A DNA stretch of 64,000 nt, from positions 1 to 64,000 of the forward strand of contig JALSQW010000064.1 of the NCBI GenBank assembly GCA_026985095.1. The letters run 5' to 3'. The position numbers and the translations under genes are program-made. This DNA is from Acidimicrobiia bacterium. Lineage in GTDB: Bacteria; Actinomycetota; Acidimicrobiia; Spongiisociales; UBA5794. Shown here one piece after another: positions 25,116 through 50,067 of the stretch. Under the pieces are notes generated by a model that saw nothing but the letters and a program-made list of their open reading frames with translations, made no database searches and had not been told where the DNA came from. Every line of letters starts with the position of its first letter. Within the stretch, counting starts at the first letter, position 1.

Positions 25116-25601
25116 TCAGGGTCCGATCTCCCGCCGGCGTCTGCTCGAGATCACCCCGGTGTCGAAACCGGCGAGGTGGAGACCGCCGGCGAAGCGGGCG
25201 TGCTCGATCTTGAGGCAGCGGTCCTGGACCACCTCGAGCCCGGCGTCGAGGGCTCGGCGGGCGGCCTCGTCGTTGCGGAGGCCGAGCTGGAACCACACCA
25301 CCTTGGCGCCCACCTCGATGGCTTCGTCGACGACGCCGGGAAGATCTTCGGGCCGCCGGAACACGTCGACGATGTCGGGGACCTCGGGCAGGTCCGCCAA
25401 CGACGGGTAGCAGCGGAGGCCGAGGACCTCCTCGTAGCGAGGGTTGACCGGGTAGACCCGGAGGTCGGTCCGGACCAGGTAGGTGGCGACGAAGTTCGAC
25501 GAGCGCAGCTCGTTGGCGGAGACACCGACGAGCGCCACCGACTCGGCGTTGCGGAGGATGCGCAGGCGGTCCCGAGCGGAGGCTTCCGGTACCGGCGTCA
25601 T
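25116..25601 (-). CDS. CoA-binding domain protein (YccU-like)
   Basis: 161 residues. The Rossmann CoA-binding fold shows VALVGVSANELRSSNFVATYL, VYPVNPRYEEVLGLRCYPSL, DIVDVFRRPEDLP and VWFQLGLRNDEAARRA, the full signature of the YccU/CoA_binding_2 family. The function is unknown; it probably senses or binds CoA. Its ATG overlaps the metY stop (ATGA), so it is cotranscribed and translationally coupled with it. Confidence 0.88.
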   Translation of the reverse strand: MTPVPEASARDRLRILRNAESVALVGVSANELRSSNFVATYLVRTDLRVYPVNPRYEEVLGLRCYPSLADLPEVPDIVDVFRRPEDLPGVVDEAIEVGAKVVWFQLGLRNDEAARRALDAGLEVVQDRCLKIEHARFAGGLHLAGFDTGVISSRRRREIGP

Positions 25602-26884
25602 GATGCCGGCTCCAGGGCGTTGCCCAGGTCCCACACGATGTCGTCGGCGTCCTCTAGCCCGACGGAGATGCGGATCATGTCGTCGGAGATACCGGCTGCC
25701 TCGCGCTCGTCGACCGGCACCTGCTGGTGCGTCGTCGACGCCGGATGGATGACGAGCGTCTTCGCGTCGCCGATGTTGGCCAGATGAGAGGCGAGCTCGA
25801 CGCCTTCGATGAACCGGACACCTGCCTCGTACCCGCCCCGGAGCCCGAAGGTGAAGACCGCTCCCGGTCCCTTCGGCGTGTACCGGCGGGCCAGGGGCGT
25901 CCAGGGGTTGTCGTCGAAGATCGGGTACGAGATCCACGATACCGCTGGGTGATCCCGGAGGAAGCGGGCGATGGCCTCGGCGTTGGCGACATGGCGGTCC
26001 ATGCGAAGCGGCAGGGTCTCGAGGCCGAGGAGGAACAGGAAGGCGTTGAACGGTGACAGGGAGGCTCCGGTGTCCCGGAGGAGCTCGACGCGGGCTTTGG
26101 TCAGGTAGGCGTACTCGCGGAAGTTCTCCCAGAACCGCAGCCCGTGATAGGCGGGGGAGGGCTCGGTGATCTGCGGGAACCGACCGTTGTCCCAGGGGAA
26201 CGTCCCCGACTCGACGATGACACCGCCGATGGCGACGCCGTGCCCGCCGATGAACTTCGTCGCCGAATGGACGACGATGTCCGCTCCGTGCTCGATCGGC
26301 CGGCACAGGGCGGGGGTGGCGAACGTGTTGTCGACGACGAGCGGAAGCCCGTGGGCGTGGGCGACGTCGGCGACCGCGCCGATGTCGAGCACGTCGGCCC
26401 TGGGGTTGCCGATCGTCTCGCCGTAGATGAGCTTGGTGCGCCCGGAGATGGCGGAGACGAGCCGGCCCTCGTCGTCGAGGTCGACGAAGGTCGCCGAGAT
26501 CCCCATCTTGCGCAAGGTGACGTCGAACTGGGTGTAGGTGCCGCCGTAGAGCGACCTCGAGGCCACGATCTCGTCGCCCGCTTCGCACAACGAGAGGACG
26601 GCGATGAGCTGGGCGGCCTGACCGGAGGCGGTGGCGACCGCCCCCAGGCCTCCTTCGAGAGACGCCATCCGTTCTTCGAACGCGGCCGTCGTCGGGTTCC
26701 CGATGCGGGTGTAGATGTTCCCGTAGGTCTGGAGCGCGAACAGGTCCGCGGCGTGTTGGGCGTCCTCGAAGACGAACGACGTCGTGGCGTAGATGGGTTG
26801 AGCCCTGGCTCCGGTCTCGGGGTCCGGGCGTTGCCCGGCGTGGATGGCGCGGGTGGCGAACCCGAAGTCGTGGGGCGAGGTCAT
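25598..26884 (-). CDS. metY: O-acetylhomoserine sulfhydrylase-like PLP enzyme
   Basis: 428 residues, in the Cys/Met-metabolism PLP family. Key motifs are YTRIGNPTTAAFEERMASLEG, the SLYGGTYTQF loop, VVDNTFATPALCRPIEHGAD, and the Schiff-base Lys210 in HSATKFIGGHG. Length and the IGGVIVESG segment fit the MetY group, which makes homocysteine from O-acetylhomoserine and sulfide. The first gene of a two-gene operon with the CoA-binding protein. No SAM riboswitch is evident upstream; the intergene holds the palindromic repeat at 26953-26983. Confidence 0.9.
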   Translation of the reverse strand: MTSPHDFGFATRAIHAGQRPDPETGARAQPIYATTSFVFEDAQHAADLFALQTYGNIYTRIGNPTTAAFEERMASLEGGLGAVATASGQAAQLIAVLSLCEAGDEIVASRSLYGGTYTQFDVTLRKMGISATFVDLDDEGRLVSAISGRTKLIYGETIGNPRADVLDIGAVADVAHAHGLPLVVDNTFATPALCRPIEHGADIVVHSATKFIGGHGVAIGGVIVESGTFPWDNGRFPQITEPSPAYHGLRFWENFREYAYLTKARVELLRDTGASLSPFNAFLFLLGLETLPLRMDRHVANAEAIARFLRDHPAVSWISYPIFDDNPWTPLARRYTPKGPGAVFTFGLRGGYEAGVRFIEGVELASHLANIGDAKTLVIHPASTTHQQVPVDEREAAGISDDMIRISVGLEDADDIVWDLGNALEPAS

Positions 26885-26952: not shown

Positions 26953-26983
26953 GGGCTCCCCGAACCCAGGGTTCGGGGAGCCC
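26953..26983. repeat. Solitary copy of the palindromic repeat family, acting as a terminator-like hairpin
   Basis: GGGCTCCCCGAACCC, one A, then the exact 15-base complement GGGTTCGGGGAGCCC. Its core (GAACCC-N-GGGTT followed by GGGGAGCCC) matches the 37-bp units at 28448-28581 and 29667-29703. It lies between the end of the OsmC gene and the start of metY, both on the minus strand, so it may terminate the OsmC transcript. Confidence 0.85.
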
Positions 26984-27026: not shown

Positions 27027-27551
27027 TCACGCCCCCTCCGCGAGGGCGACGGCCACCGGGACGGGCCGCTGCAGGGTGTGCGCGACCGGGGATGTGGCCA
27101 CGACCGTGTCGTGGAGACGCCCGACGGCCTCGGCGTCGGCATCGGTGTCGATCCGTACGGTGACCCGGATGTCGTCGAACCCGGCATGCGTTCCGCCCAG
27201 TCCGAGGAACGTGGTCAGGTCGAGATCGCCTTCGATGTCGACGTCAAGGCCTCGCAGGTCGATGCCGGCCGCTGCCGCGTTGACGGCGTAGCCGACGACG
27301 AGGCAGTTGGCGAGCGCTCCCAGGAGCTGTTCGACCGGGTTGGGGGCCGTGTCGCTGCCGCCGAGGGCGGTCGGCTCATCGGAGGGGATGGGGTCGAACG
27401 CTCGGATGCGGACCTCGGAGCGGAACGCGCCGGTCCAGGTGGCGGACGCCCGCCAGGTGGTGGCCGCCCGCTCGGGTTCGGCGGCGATCGCGCGGGCGAG
27501 GGTCTGTACGGTCTCGAGGTCGACGTCGTTGGTGTGGGTGTGGATGGTCAT
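27027..27551 (-). CDS. OsmC-family protein with a Ser in place of the second cysteine
   Basis: 174 residues. The OsmC/Ohr fold is shown by PNPVEQLLGALANCLVVGYA with the first redox Cys83, and by RLHDTVVATSPVAHTL. There, position 154 is Ser where peroxiredoxin-like OsmC proteins usually have the second Cys (CPV). That makes a classical two-cysteine peroxidase mechanism unlikely and points to the YhfA-like branch. GGAGCGAAGGAG lies before the ATG and an inverted repeat a little further upstream suggests regulation. Confidence 0.87.
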   Translation of the reverse strand: MTIHTHTNDVDLETVQTLARAIAAEPERAATTWRASATWTGAFRSEVRIRAFDPIPSDEPTALGGSDTAPNPVEQLLGALANCLVVGYAVNAAAAGIDLRGLDVDIEGDLDLTTFLGLGGTHAGFDDIRVTVRIDTDADAEAVGRLHDTVVATSPVAHTLQRPVPVAVALAEGA

Positions 27552-27589: not shown

Positions 27590-28132
27590 ACGCCTGGTTC
27601 CCTCCCGGGTGGTGGCGTTCGTCAGGAGCGGTGGGATGCCGCGTCCGGGGAGGCCACCCGGGAGCTGGGCATCATCGCCATGGGGCGCGAAGGGACCGTG
27701 ATGATGGGGGTCCGTGGTGTCGTCATCGGCGTGCTCCTCGTCGTCCGTGCGCTCGGCGAGCGCCTCGGGCGGGGGTCCGCCGTCGGCGTCTCATCGTTCA
27801 GGCGTTGGCACCGTGCGTCTCCGTCGGTTGCCGCGGCGTCTTCGGGCCTGTCCCTCGACCGCTCTGGATGAGCGCGTTGTGTCGGGGGAGTGAAGCACGG
27901 TTCGTCGGTTGCGTCAAGGGCCGATCCGGAGATCCGCCCGGTACCGGCGCCGGTGGCGTACACTTCCCTCAGCGCACGGCTCAGCGTGCGGCGCCTCTTC
28001 GCTCCTTCGTTCCGTCGGGTGAAGTCGCCGTGGGGCTCCGTCGCCGTCCCGATCTCCCTCGGGCACGGTTCCGGAGTGCGCAACCCACGGGGCGTTGTCA
28101 ACGACGGTCCAAGCTCCAAGGAGCGAACAGCA
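27590..28132. other. 540-bp stretch without a convincing gene; leader of the RNA-binding protein gene
   Basis: No frame here has a family match or a good start. A -10 candidate TACACT is at 27959-27964, giving a leader of about 160 nt for the RRM gene at 28133. A six-base hairpin (CGCACG, six-base loop, CGTGCG) at 27973-27990 would form near the 5' end of that RNA. Long leaders are common for cold-induced RNA-binding proteins; a regulatory role is only inferred. Confidence 0.4.
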
Positions 28133-28384
28133 ATGTCCAGCAAGCTCTATGTCGGGAACCTTCCCTTCTCCAGCGACGCCGCCCACCTCCGCACCGTGTT
28201 CGGTGAGTTCGGTGAGGTCGTCGACGCCGTGGTCATCACCGATCGCGACACCGGCCGCTCCCGCGGTTTCGGGTTCGTCGAGATGGCGAACGACGATGCG
28301 GCCCAAGCCGCCATCAGCGCCATGAACGGTGCCGACCTCGACGGTCGTTCCCTCACGGTGAACGTGGCGAAGCCTCGCCGCTGA
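28133..28384 (+). CDS. RRM-domain RNA-binding protein
   Basis: 83 residues, a single RNA-recognition motif: RNP2 LYVGNLPFS (residues 5-13) and RNP1 RGFGFVEM (about 45-52), followed by INA-type helix DAAQAAISAMNGAD. Bacterial single-RRM proteins of this size are often cold-inducible and bind RNA non-specifically. CAAGGAGCG is nine bases before the ATG. It is followed by a strong terminator. Confidence 0.95.
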   Translation: MSSKLYVGNLPFSSDAAHLRTVFGEFGEVVDAVVITDRDTGRSRGFGFVEMANDDAAQAAISAMNGADLDGRSLTVNVAKPRR

Positions 28385-28432: not shown

Positions 28433-28447
28433 GCGTCCCGACTCGGC

Positions 28448-28581
28448 GAACCCTGGGTTGGGGAGCCCCCTGGAGGGGTGTGGTGAACCCTGGGTTGTGG
28501 AGCCCCCTGGAGGGGTGTGGTGAACCCTGGGTTGGGGAGCCCCCTGGAGGGGTGTGGTGAACCCTGGGTTGTGGAGCCCCC
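28448..28581. repeat. 37-bp tandem direct repeats, left array (3 full units plus a partial)
   Basis: Units start at 28448, 28485, 28522 and 28559, exactly 37 bp apart. Each begins GAACCCTGGGTT and continues with GGAGCCCCCTGGAGGGGTGT; units 1 and 3 have GGGG where 2 and 4 have GTGG. There are no unique spacers. The array ends immediately before the stop codon of the lipoprotein gene. Confidence 0.92.
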
Positions 28582-28582
28582 G

Positions 28583-29200
28583 TCAGTCTTGGCTGAAGAG
28601 GAAGACATTGGTCGAGTACTGCTCGATACACGGACGAGCGCGCCGGTCCGCGACGAACGTGGGGTCCGACTCGAAGGAATCGATGCTCGCATTGCTATCG
28701 ATGTCGAGGCCTCGTTCACGCAGACATTCAACGTAGTCGATTCGTACCGCCTCCGCTTCGGACCCGGTCGGTTGTTGCTGGACGATCCACGCCGCGGCGA
28801 TGCCGTCGAGGTAGGTGGCCTCGCACAGGGTCTGAACCGATTCGAACGTGTCGGAAGGAGCGCCGCCCGGCCCTTCGTCGGGTCCCAGGCCTACCACGTA
28901 GCCGAGGAAGCGGCCTGCATTGATCTCGAGCGGGCCTGTGACGGCCAACCCCTGTTGCTGCATGCAGGCGATCGTCGCGGCGATGGCCCGCTCGTACTCG
29001 GCCCGGGTGACGATTCCGTCGGCCAGGATCTCGCGCTGGAATCCGGTGGAGTTGCCTGCGAGGCGCCCAGAGCGGAGGGCCGTGTCGTCGGTCGGAGGGG
29101 CGCATGCGGAGGCGGCGAGCATCACCAACGTGACCAGCGTAGTCAAACCGATCGTCACCCCTCGGGTGGCTCGGCGCGAAACGATGGTGCGACGGGTCAC
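28583..29200 (-). CDS. Cassette A lipoprotein, four-Cys family
   Basis: 205 residues from a GTG at 29200. The N-terminal Arg-rich signal peptide ends in the lipobox LAASAC (Cys33), so it is probably anchored outside the membrane. The mature part has ADGIVTRAEYERAIAATIACM, then Cys79, Cys126, Cys159 and Cys191. The protein at 49435-50067 aligns over its whole length (EILxDGxVTxAE, IxCM, then three more Cys) and the lipoprotein at 44018-44620 shares the Cys spacing and the C-[ML]-R-[ED]-x-G-x-D motif. It starts 10 bp after the peptide gene stop, so both are in one operon. It might be an immunity protein or chaperone for the peptide (inference). Confidence 0.75.
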   Translation of the reverse strand: MTRRTIVSRRATRGVTIGLTTLVTLVMLAASACAPPTDDTALRSGRLAGNSTGFQREILADGIVTRAEYERAIAATIACMQQQGLAVTGPLEINAGRFLGYVVGLGPDEGPGGAPSDTFESVQTLCEATYLDGIAAAWIVQQQPTGSEAEAVRIDYVECLRERGLDIDSNASIDSFESDPTFVADRRARPCIEQYSTNVFLFSQD

Positions 29201-29210
29201 TCCGGCCCCG

Positions 29211-29561
29211 TCAGTACGAGTATCTGTAGGAACTCCATCCCTTCTGCGCGTCCTTTCCGCGATGGGCTCCCGTGACGTCGCTCGGGTAGACGTGCAGGGT
29301 CTCCTGAACGACCCAACGTGATCCGTAGGCGTTGCCGGTGGAGTACCAGTAGCCGTCTACCTTGTATTTGACCTTTGCTGACACGGCAGTGCAGGTGAAG
29401 TCCCATTCCGTGGTCTTGGCATACCCGACCCCGGCTCCCATCCAACTGGTGCCATCGAACTCGCAGTTCCAATAGGACCATGCGTGGGCGGGCGGTACCG
29501 AGCTCAGCGACAGGCTCACCGTCACGATCGCGATCAGCCTCCGGATCGAGCGTCGCGTCAT
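29211..29561 (-). CDS. Cassette A small exported two-Cys peptide
   Basis: 116 residues from the ATG at 29561, chosen for the GAGGAGG ribosome site five bases upstream. The signal peptide is MTRRSIRRLIAIVTVSLSLS followed by SVPPAHA, with cleavage expected after Ala27, giving an 89-residue mature peptide rich in Trp and Tyr with Cys33 and Cys57. The C-terminal half (VKYKVDGYWYSTG, GSRWVVQE, GAHRGKDAQKGW) aligns with that of the peptide at 48954-49343, including the two cysteines (24-25 apart). Size, aromatic content and an adjacent lipoprotein suggest a bacteriocin- or toxin-like secreted product, unproven. A TACGAT -10 candidate lies at 29609-29614. Confidence 0.75.
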   Translation of the reverse strand: MTRRSIRRLIAIVTVSLSLSSVPPAHAWSYWNCEFDGTSWMGAGVGYAKTTEWDFTCTAVSAKVKYKVDGYWYSTGNAYGSRWVVQETLHVYPSDVTGAHRGKDAQKGWSSYRYSY

Positions 29562-29666
29562 CACGTCCTCCTCTCTGTCGGTCACGGGGTGCGACGACCT
29601 CTGGAGTCATCGTATGACGGGTCGGGGGGGTCAAGGCGTCGGCAGTCCCGAAGGCCAGCCTGTTGT

Positions 29667-29727
29667 GAACCCTGGGTTGTGGAGCCCCCTGGAGGGGTGT
29701 GGTGAACCCTGGGTTCGCCGAGTCGGG
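29667..29727. repeat. Right-hand copy of the 37-bp repeat plus the inverted end of cassette A
   Basis: A full 37-bp unit (29667-29703, identical to units 2 and 4 of the left array where compared) is followed by a partial unit from 29704. That partial unit switches after GGGTT into CGCCGAGTCGGG, the inverted counterpart of the left end. Two bases later comes the stop codon of the aldehyde dehydrogenase. Confidence 0.9.
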
Positions 29728-29729
29728 CC

Positions 29730-31232
29730 TCAGCGGCCGCCGCGACCGAGGTTGATCCAGGTCGTCTTGACGTTGGTGTACTTGTCGAGGGCGTGGACGC
29801 CCTTGTCCTTGCCCCCGAAGCCCGACTCCTTGAACCCGCCGAAGGGGGCGGTGATGTCAGCCTGATCGAAGTTGTTGATCCACACCGTGCCCGCTCGGAG
29901 CCCTCGGGCCATGCGGTGGGCCCTGGCCAGGTCTGACGTCCACACCGCCGCCGACAGCCCGTAGCGGGTCTCGTTGGCGATGCGCAGGGCCTCCTCCTCG
30001 TCATCGAAGGGGATGACGGCCAGGACCGGACCGAAGATCTCGTCCTGGGCGATGGCCATGTCGTTACGGACCCCGGCGAACACGGTGGGTTCGACGTAGA
30101 AGCCACCCGTCTCTTCGAGGATCCGACGCCCGCCGGCGACGAGCTCGGCGCCTTCGGCGACGCCTCGTTCGACGTAGCCGAGGATCCGCTCCAGGGCCTC
30201 CTCCTCGACGACCGGTCCGGCTTTGGTCTTCGGGTCGAGGGGATTCCCGGGTCGCCAGGCGGCGGCGAGCTCCTTCACCTTGTCGATGGCGGCGTCGAGG
30301 ATCGGGCGCTGGACCAAGAGCCGCGACCCGGCCACGCACATCTCGCCGGTGTTCCAGAAGATCGAGAACCCGATGGCGGACAGGGCGAAGTCGAGGTCCG
30401 GAGCGTCGGCGAAGATGATGTTCGGGGTCTTGCCGCCCGTCTCGAGCGACACCCGTTTCATGTTCGACTGGCCGGCGTACTGGAGGAGCAGCTTGCCCAC
30501 CGGGGTGGAGCCCGTGAACGTGATCGCGTCGACATCGCGGTGCAGGGCGAGGGCCTTGCCGGCGTCCTCGCCGAAGCCGGGCACGACGTTGAGCACGCCC
30601 GGGGGGACGCCGGCTTCGGCCGCCAGTTCGGCGATCCGGAGGGCGACGAGCGGGGACTGTTCCGCCGGTTTGAGGACCACGGAGTTCCCCGCGACGAGGG
30701 CTGGGGCGAGCTTCCACGCATCGATCATGAGCGGGAAGTTCCACGGAGTGATCGCTCCGACCACGCCGACCGGCTCTCGCGTGATGAGGCCGAGGGCGTC
30801 GGGCCCGGTGGGGCTGATGGCGTCGTACAGCTTGTCTGCGGCCTCTCCGTACCAGCGGTAGCTGATCTCGGCCTGGACCAGGTCGACCTTCGACGAGTAC
30901 CGGATCGGTTTGCCCATGTCGAGGGTCGTCAGCAGGGCGAGCTCGTCGCCGTGCTCCACCAGGAGGTCGGCGAGCCGGACGAGTACTCGTCCCCGGGCGC
31001 GGGGGGTCAGGTCTCGCCAGCGGCCGTCTTCGAAGGCGGCGCGGGCGGCGGCGACGGCCCGGTCGATGTCCTCGGCGCCGCCTTCGGCGACCTCGGCGAC
31101 CTCCTCGCCGCTGATCGGACTGCGGTCGGTGAAGGCCCGGCCGGACACCGGGTCGACGTGGCGTCCGTCGATGTAGGGGCGGCCGTCGGGCCGGATCTCG
31201 GTGACGGCCTCCTGGACGGTGAGCGTGGTCAT
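29730..31232 (-). CDS. Aldehyde dehydrogenase (PuuC/betaine-aldehyde-dehydrogenase type)
   Basis: 500 residues. NAD-dependent aldehyde oxidation is indicated by TPWNFPLMIDAWKLAPAL, the cofactor-binding FTGSTPVGK, the general base Glu in SLETGGKTPNII, and the catalytic Cys in WNTGEMCVAGSRL. The C-terminal GFKESGFGGKDKG is typical of gamma-glutamyl-aminobutyraldehyde or betaine-aldehyde dehydrogenases. The substrate is not certain. GAGGAGG precedes the ATG. It is divergent from hpaE, and cassette A abuts its stop codon. Confidence 0.9.
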   Translation of the reverse strand: MTTLTVQEAVTEIRPDGRPYIDGRHVDPVSGRAFTDRSPISGEEVAEVAEGGAEDIDRAVAAARAAFEDGRWRDLTPRARGRVLVRLADLLVEHGDELALLTTLDMGKPIRYSSKVDLVQAEISYRWYGEAADKLYDAISPTGPDALGLITREPVGVVGAITPWNFPLMIDAWKLAPALVAGNSVVLKPAEQSPLVALRIAELAAEAGVPPGVLNVVPGFGEDAGKALALHRDVDAITFTGSTPVGKLLLQYAGQSNMKRVSLETGGKTPNIIFADAPDLDFALSAIGFSIFWNTGEMCVAGSRLLVQRPILDAAIDKVKELAAAWRPGNPLDPKTKAGPVVEEEALERILGYVERGVAEGAELVAGGRRILEETGGFYVEPTVFAGVRNDMAIAQDEIFGPVLAVIPFDDEEEALRIANETRYGLSAAVWTSDLARAHRMARGLRAGTVWINNFDQADITAPFGGFKESGFGGKDKGVHALDKYTNVKTTWINLGRGGR

Positions 31233-48953: not shown

Positions 48954-49343
48954 ATGGCTCGAGTAGGCGGACGTCGATGGTTCTCGATGTTGACCATCGT
49001 CGCCTTCTTCGTGATCGCCATCACCGGTACGGCGTTGGCGGCCAGCCGGAACAACGTCCTGTTCCCCAACGGCTGTCGAATCGACGAGTGGAACGGTTAC
49101 TCGTTGTGGCGCGACCAGGCGGACGGCAAGACGCATGAGGACTACGGCTGCGAGCTGATCAAGGTGAAGATGCGCTACTACGACCCGAATCGTGGCTTCT
49201 GGGTCACTGGCTCATCGGCATGGAGCGCCGGCGACTCCAACCGGGATGTGAGAATCCACAAGTACACGGACCGGGTGCCCGCATGGACCGACCATCTCGG
49301 GAAGGCCAACGGGATCGCATGGGGACAGAAGCTCTGGTACTAG
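48954..49343 (+). CDS. Cassette B small exported two-Cys peptide
   Basis: 129 residues from the ATG at 48954 (AAGGGAG six bases upstream; the ATG at 48948 is too close to it). The signal peptide MARVGGRRWFSMLTIVAFFV is followed by IAITGTALA, with cleavage near residue 29-30. The mature peptide of about 100 residues has Cys41 and Cys66 and many Trp/Tyr. The block CELIKVKMRYYDPNRGFWVTG, then HLGKANGIAWGQKLWY, aligns with the cassette A peptide (C-x4-VK-x-Y, [FY]W-x2-G, H-x2-GK, W, terminal Y). Bacteriocin- or toxin-like role inferred. A hairpin terminator follows. Confidence 0.75.
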   Translation: MARVGGRRWFSMLTIVAFFVIAITGTALAASRNNVLFPNGCRIDEWNGYSLWRDQADGKTHEDYGCELIKVKMRYYDPNRGFWVTGSSAWSAGDSNRDVRIHKYTDRVPAWTDHLGKANGIAWGQKLWY

Positions 49344-49434: not shown

Positions 49435-50067
49435 ATGAATCGGGTCGTGCTCGTCACCGTCGTAGCGTTGCTTGTCGTCTCGTGTCGGCCGGCCGTCCAG
49501 CAGCGGCCTTCGACCCCCTCGTCGGTCTTCCCGACCTCAGTGGCCGGGCCGGCAACGACCGCACCCCAGCTTCAGGAGCACGCAGCCAGGACTGCCGAGA
49601 TACTCGGCGATGGCGTGGTGACGACCGCGGAGATGGGAGCGGCCTACTCGTTGTATATCGGCTGCATGGAGGAGGGAGGGGCGCACGGGAGCTACGCGTT
49701 CGATCTCAGTGTCGGGCCGGGGATGAGGATCAACTATTGGGTACCGGGCGACGACCAGGAGGGAACACGATCCGAGGCGTTGGACCAGAAGTGCCAGGGC
49801 CTTCTGGCAGATGTCGAGACCGTCTACTTCGAACAACATCCCCAGACGGAGGGCCAGCGCGCGTTGGAAGCCGACCGTCTGGCATCCTGCCTCCTCGCAG
49901 CATTGCCGGAGGGCCGTACCATCCAACTCGGCAACGACCCGGATCGTGCGGCGATCGAGGCACTGATCGCGGACATCGAATCGGACCCATCGGCTGATCC
50001 CGCCGAATACGAGGCGATCTCGGACTGCGAGGTGTTCAGTGGTTTCGGACCCTGGCGCTCCTTCTGA
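49435..50067 (+). CDS. Cassette B lipoprotein, four-Cys family
   Basis: 210 residues. The short signal MNRVVLVTVVALLVVSC carries lipobox Cys17 and is followed by a Ser/Thr/Pro linker. The conserved part starts AEILGDGVVTTAEM, then IGCMEEGG with Cys77, Cys120, Cys152 (LASCLLAALPEG) and Cys198. It matches the cassette A lipoprotein in order, length and Cys spacing (43-47, then 32-33 residues). TAGGGT lies eleven bases upstream. The 3' end overlaps the adaptor gene by 29 bases. Confidence 0.78.
   Translation: MNRVVLVTVVALLVVSCRPAVQQRPSTPSSVFPTSVAGPATTAPQLQEHAARTAEILGDGVVTTAEMGAAYSLYIGCMEEGGAHGSYAFDLSVGPGMRINYWVPGDDQEGTRSEALDQKCQGLLADVETVYFEQHPQTEGQRALEADRLASCLLAALPEGRTIQLGNDPDRAAIEALIADIESDPSADPAEYEAISDCEVFSGFGPWRSF

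Follow-up and report, generated by a model that had tools for sequence, protein, structure and literature searches.

Results and Discussion

A unit of 1,079 bp, carrying the genes of a secreted peptide and of a lipoprotein, is likely to have been inserted as a passenger, with a cargo that may be bacteriocin-like, into a resident array of 37-bp palindromic repeats in the genome of an uncultured actinobacterium (G000). The insertion was probably accompanied by the duplication of 29 bp of the array sequence. At the same site only the array is present in the sister species G001, and G016, from another genus, has neither array nor pair; elsewhere, homologous pairs are framed by long duplications of their targets, and in two of these cases the empty site is found in single copy.

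Organisation of the focal block

The block lies at positions 28437-29727 of the window (the whole stretch of DNA that was analysed, 64,000 nucleotides), between the gene of an RRM RNA-binding protein on the left (28133..28384, plus strand) and an aldehyde dehydrogenase (ALDH) gene on the right (29730..31232, minus strand), which is 91% identical in G001; the two neighbours stand side by side also in G001 and G016. The left part of the array (28437..28581, plus strand) consists of the outer flank CCCGACTCGGCG followed by four AACCCTGGGTT palindromes spaced by 37 bp (28449-28570), and the right part (29661..29727, plus strand) of two palindromes with the same spacing (29668-29715) and of the outer flank CGCCGAGTCGGG, which is inverted relative to the left one. 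The outer ends, CCCGACTCGGCGAACCCTGGGTT (28437-28459) and AACCCTGGGTTCGCCGAGTCGGG (29705-29727), are inverted repeats matching at 22 of 23 positions, and the outer flanks share a perfect inverted match of 12 bp. The window contains 7 copies of the palindrome AACCCWGGGTT, where 0.01 would be expected, and six of the seven are at the focal block; a lone AACCCTGGGTT copy is found at 26963-26973.

The inserted unit proper (28582..29660, minus strand) comprises a putative promoter, the peptide gene (29211..29561 from its ATG, 116 aa, with an N-terminal signal-like sequence) and the lipoprotein gene (28583..29200, 205 aa, with a lipobox Cys and the DGxVTxxEYE motif of its family). These are the only genes inside the block, both on the minus strand. 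The G+C content of the core is 64.2%, compared to 69.0% for the window, which ranks it among the lowest 0.6% of stretches of the same size; its composition is foreign-like. These results confirmed the description given in the sequence-only reading, namely a block with 23-bp inverted ends and 37-bp units on both sides, devoid of any transposase and containing only homologues of the first two genes of a longer operon in the same window (cassette B), the homology being remote. The limits of the block were also as described, between a terminator and a stop codon: on the left, an apparent terminator hairpin, as read from the sequence, follows the RRM gene and precedes the outer end, and the left array stops one base before the stop codon of the lipoprotein gene.

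The 29 bp at 28553..28581 are directly repeated, with one mismatch, at 29661..29689 (both plus strand). When the core and one copy of this duplication are removed, five palindromes are left, the same number as in G001 including its degenerate copy. In a target made of tandem repeats a 29-bp duplication has no diagnostic value and, alone, proves nothing; the case rests on the relatives of the pair at other loci, reported below.

Two further features of the window were noted. Positions 1-120 are a low-complexity tandem repeat whose period is 30 bp (CGACGACCTCGACGACGCCCC type). A search of Rfam gave no match to the array and detected nearby only a SAM riboswitch (RF00162, 65.3 bits, minus strand, 27788-27874), which is located upstream of an OsmC-like gene (27027-27551) and of an O-acetylhomoserine sulfhydrylase-like gene (25598-26884).

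The RRM-ALDH site in related genomes

In G001 (JALVQZ010000241.1, L088) the interval between RRM and ALDH contains one array, with its outer flank on the ALDH side, and neither a peptide nor a lipoprotein gene. In G016 66 bp separate the RRM gene from the ALDH gene, and both the array and the pair are missing. The interval therefore exists in three states, namely 66 bp in G016, array only in G001, and array plus pair in G000. The comparison covers these two relatives, as the others searched showed no RRM gene beside the ALDH orthologue. The clean absence of the pair from this fixed site in both is in line with the gain or loss anticipated by the sequence-only reading, which had proposed to compare this interval, and homologous pairs are indeed found at other sites. 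The presence/absence of the pair at this site is thus clean; the pair was either inserted into a resident array or lost from it and, with two relatives, loss is not firmly separable from gain.

The simplest history is that the array came first and that the pair was inserted into it later. The opposite history, in which the pair was ancestral in the genus between RRM and ALDH and G001 lost it when array units recombined with each other, would yield exactly the clean array seen in that species; nevertheless, we consider it unlikely, given that G016 has neither array nor pair, that the core has a foreign-like composition, and that the closest G001 homologue (51%) resides at another locus, whose counterpart in G000 is empty.

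The family of 37-bp arrays

A pattern based on the unit gave 91 matches in the 2.93-Mb genome G000, and a paired pattern gave 105 matches in G000, 64 in G001 and 42 in another genome of the family; in the remainder of the order matches were few or absent. Among named genomes, matches to the array pattern came almost all from Acidimicrobiia and other actinobacterial records. The arrays are intergenic, frequently within a few bases of a stop codon, and are made of units of 36-38 bp around a AACCCTGGGTT core, with outer flanks that vary by locus. For 20 of the 35 arrays sampled in G000 an array is present at the equivalent intergenic site in G001, and on this basis we regard the arrays as resident. 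The figure of 20 is a minimum, as the loci considered in G001 were those returned by the array search. The similarity of the spacers between the two species was 0.53 at equivalent sites and again 0.53 at different sites, compared to 0.77 and 0.67 at different sites within one species. Spacers alike within a species, and not by site between species, indicate that the arrays evolve in concert in each species: they keep their intergenic position between sister species, and their spacers are homogenised within each (concerted evolution).

REP/BIME and MIRU elements are likewise short palindromic units, arranged in tandem, intergenic, dispersed and variable in copy number, and the arrays share all these traits with them. 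They differ from these elements in their units of 36-38 bp, in the species-specific spacers homogenised genome-wide and in the absence of the REP-associated Y1 transposase. In fact, a search for this transposase (PF01797) gave 0 matches in G000 and was positive in five control genomes, and a RAYT-driven REP system was ruled out for the arrays on this ground. A second hairpin conserved across genomes in the array spacer was not supported (mean z -0.80), and the literature on the repeat core returned chance matches only.

Some arrays surround or adjoin other genes. In G000 a lone AbiEi_4-type antitoxin-like gene lies between two arrays (L057, 11746-12669, contig C9), and the metX/nitroreductase neighbourhood of G016 has neither the arrays nor this gene; it is possibly a second unit inserted at an array. 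Genes located between two arrays are not a general mark of a cassette, as shown by the transhydrogenase-like genes of contig C56, which occupy such a position and are conserved in G001. Moreover, in G000 one locus is found at two contig ends in two instances (C21 start/C23 end and C19 end/C32 start; L063, L067, L062, L069), and the versions differ in the sequence of the array units or in the number of palindromes (2 vs 4), which suggests repeat-number variants in the population.

Homogenised arrays could in principle act as docking sites, so that a circle carrying array units and a gene unit would enter or leave any array by homologous recombination. If this were the case, gene units would circulate among dozens of equivalent sites with no dedicated recombinase, in parallel with the copies of gene tails that 'address' other units to single genes. 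We regard this reading as quite unlikely.

Duplicated targets at other pair loci

The evidence that carries the insertion of the focal pair comes from its homologues. In G000 the pair on contig C53 is framed by a 100% identical duplication of 42 bp from the 3' end of an M23-peptidase gene, stop codon included, and the G001 counterpart (L245) has a single tail and no pair. Reciprocally, a pair on contig C194 of G001 is framed by a duplication of 136 bp of the end of a response-regulator gene, 98% identical, and the G000 counterpart (C56) has a single tail, 89% identical to that of G001, and no pair; since the two G001 copies are more alike (98%) than either is to the G000 tail (89%), this duplication is younger than the species split. 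Each of the two species therefore holds a pair that is absent from the other, and the target is duplicated only where the pair is present.

Further frames were found in the same family of pairs. In G069 a stretch of 492 bp including the end of hutH is duplicated (96%), in a genome assembled as a single contig of 2.2 Mb; in G077 it is 81 bp of mnmA (85%). Two frames are decayed and their copies internally deleted: the end of an acyl-CoA synthetase gene at the pair on contig C67 of G001 (~395 bp), and the tail of an ABC exporter gene in G064 (~578 bp), behind which a whole peptide-lipoprotein-adaptor-ABC-FtsX operon is located. The targets differ at every framed unit and are mostly gene 3' ends. 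Among the ~23 isolated loci for which both flanks were available, a hand count gave 7 with clear frames, a number that includes the focal locus framed by its array, and about 16 with none. The pair next to lgt/mscL, whose site is identical in G000 and G001, was inherited vertically.

As a control, direct repeats of at least 40 bp, with at least 80% identity and a spacing of 0.3-5 kb, were searched in 1.25 Mb from G000, G069 and G064. Outside arrays such repeats were rare; those inspected were the C53 pair, a region on contig C8 upstream of, and common to, peptide genes, a TetR gene tail on C12 and a tRNA-like piece, and three weaker repeats on C56 (80-82%) may be paralogues. The TetR case (L213, C12 178086-179503) is a 53-bp gene-tail duplication framing a DTDGD-repeat gene with no Pfam match, which adjoins a further locus with a secreted peptide and an ABC transporter. 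In the control region of G069 (contig C1, 200 kb from position 100001) two gene-tail frames enclose unrelated genes (161182-162757 and 164476-167032 of that stretch), the tails being those of an alpha/beta-hydrolase gene and of a small secreted-protein gene. Because these two frames hold unrelated genes, the insertion mode is wider than the peptide-lipoprotein family; framed insertion seems to be over-represented in this family without being exclusive to it.

Direct target copies flanking inserts at many unrelated sites could also be produced by an unrecognised transposase or integrase making very long and variable staggered cuts. We hold this distinctly unlikely: no common terminal sequence was seen among the unit ends, by eye, nor any candidate enzyme within the units, and the duplications range from 42 to 492 bp (about 578 bp counting the decayed one). 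To our knowledge, duplications of 42-492 bp exceed the staggered cuts of known transposases in both length and variability. An integrase-type island was likewise rejected, as neither an integrase nor another mobility gene was seen within the units, and no attachment site is common to targets that differ each time.

Most of the genomes compared are metagenome assemblies, for which read data would be needed to establish array copy numbers and, in principle, also the focal join. Short repeats might have led the assembler to join an unrelated contig into the array: repeats of 37 bp are hard for short reads, and G000 does have contigs that stop in an array, at two loci each of which is also represented by a second version. 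However, at those arrays the assembler broke instead of joining, both outer sides of the focal block match one contiguous locus of G001, and a similar insertion is found on the single 2.2-Mb contig of G069, so that an artefact is very improbable.

Finally, the sequence-only reading had taken the repeats as the ends of a portable cassette, and this part of it did not stand. A non-autonomous mobile element moved in trans, with the inverted ends and 37-bp units as its termini, is most improbable, despite the perfect 12-bp inverted outer flanks, the repeats on both sides and the lack of a transposase inside the block, because G001 has the array, ALDH-side flank included, at the equivalent site without the pair, dozens of arrays have no such cargo, outer flanks vary by locus, other pairs have no such repeat, some being framed by gene tails instead, and the genome has no Y1 transposase. 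A transposon or MITE with terminal inverted repeats was rejected on the same grounds, namely homologous pairs lacking the repeat and differing array outer flanks.

A possible route of insertion and comparison with known systems

Taken together with the probable insertion of the focal unit into its array, the framed loci would fit a mechanism, which we favour, in which peptide-lipoprotein units move as passengers, with no recombinase of their own. DNA carrying a unit, for example a circle or a taken-up fragment, would join the chromosome by illegitimate or homologous recombination, entry would duplicate the joining stretch, and recombination between the two copies could later delete the unit cleanly.

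Insertion with long target duplication has been described in Helicobacter pylori (Nobusato et al. 2000, Gene 259:99, as cited in PMC1643837 and PMC3031569), where, according to the accounts in these two papers, the inserts often, though not obligatorily, carry restriction-modification genes. As far as those accounts go, the pairs studied here have in common with them a gene-sized insert with no transposase, polymorphic between close relatives, and long, variable direct copies of the target, with flanking repeats that permit excision or amplification. In particular, a clean site in a close relative, with the target in single copy, is found for the focal locus and for the C53/L245 and C194/C56 couples, and long, variable duplications occur in other members of the family (42, 136, 492 and 81 bp, plus two decayed ones). 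They differ from the H. pylori inserts, again as these are presented there, in having a peptide-lipoprotein cargo in Acidimicrobiia rather than restriction-modification genes, and in their targets, which are mostly gene 3' ends and, at the focal site, a tandem repeat array. The minimal mobile element of Neisseria (Saunders and Snyder 2002), summarised in PMC8627216 as variable content between conserved genes exchanged by homologous recombination, resembles the RRM-ALDH site, whose content varies in three genomes with no mobility gene; the definition as summarised there does not include duplicated target tails, unlike what is observed in the pair family.

Our reading would extend transposase-free insertion with long target duplication from Helicobacter to a peptide-lipoprotein family of Actinomycetota, a fast-diverging family in which each of two sister species has the empty site of a pair present in the other. 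The framed and empty sites are concrete places where clean gain and loss could be tested. If the cargo is bacteriocin-like, this would illustrate how competition genes can come and go cleanly at the ends of genes with no mobile-element machinery.

The peptide-lipoprotein family and its possible function

Cassette B contains remote homologues of both focal genes, a peptide (48954-49343, plus strand) and a lipoprotein (49435-50067, plus strand), followed, up to about 52900, by a peptidoglycan-binding adaptor, an ABC ATPase and an FtsX-like permease. Its lipoprotein matched the focal one with an E value of 0.002 by tblastn, and with 6.5e-39 by a family profile of 19 rows, among which it is itself included; its peptide aligns with the common Cys/His pattern. 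One Cys and one His are invariant in the peptide family, and the lipobox Cys and four more Cys are kept in 19 of 19 aligned lipoproteins. The divergence of peptides and lipoproteins is correlated (16 pairs, Mantel r 0.70, P 0.0002).

The focal peptide and lipoprotein gave no match in Pfam or NCBIfam, and sequence and profile searches of the PDB returned nothing meaningful; the single-sequence structure model of the peptide was unusable (mean pLDDT 35.5). The lipoprotein had no match in either the plasmid or the phage collection searched. The ABC ATPases of the operons have TIGR03608 (putative bacteriocin export) as their best or second-best NCBIfam match, with 134.9 and 164.3 bits (cassette B, G064), below the cut-off of 254.85. 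We infer a bacteriocin-like role of the cargo because the full-length versions add this ABC export-like module; the focal pair itself has no export ABC transporter. The reading that we favour, tentatively, is that of a bacteriocin-like peptide whose cognate partner is a co-inherited surface lipoprotein, serving for immunity or binding; a toxin/immunity or peptide/receptor function of the focal pair would be putative. The long version is similar to lactococcin 972-type loci, in which a small secreted peptide stands by an ABC/FtsX-type export module. It is unlike them in that the peptide has no match to that family (none in Pfam for 15 peptides and none in NCBIfam for five), TIGR03608 does not reach its cut-off, and it is a Cys-rich lipoprotein that invariably accompanies the peptide.

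Matches to the lipoprotein family were found in 52 of the 138 genomes of the order, the weakest of which may belong to a wider superfamily, and G000 has ~20 members, many of them clustered. Tandem peptide-lipoprotein pairs form clusters at L050 (G000, C16), L051 (C57) and L200 (G025, C38), and duplicated stretches, some covering the region upstream of the peptide genes, are shared in these clusters; this suggests exchange or tandem duplication via these stretches.
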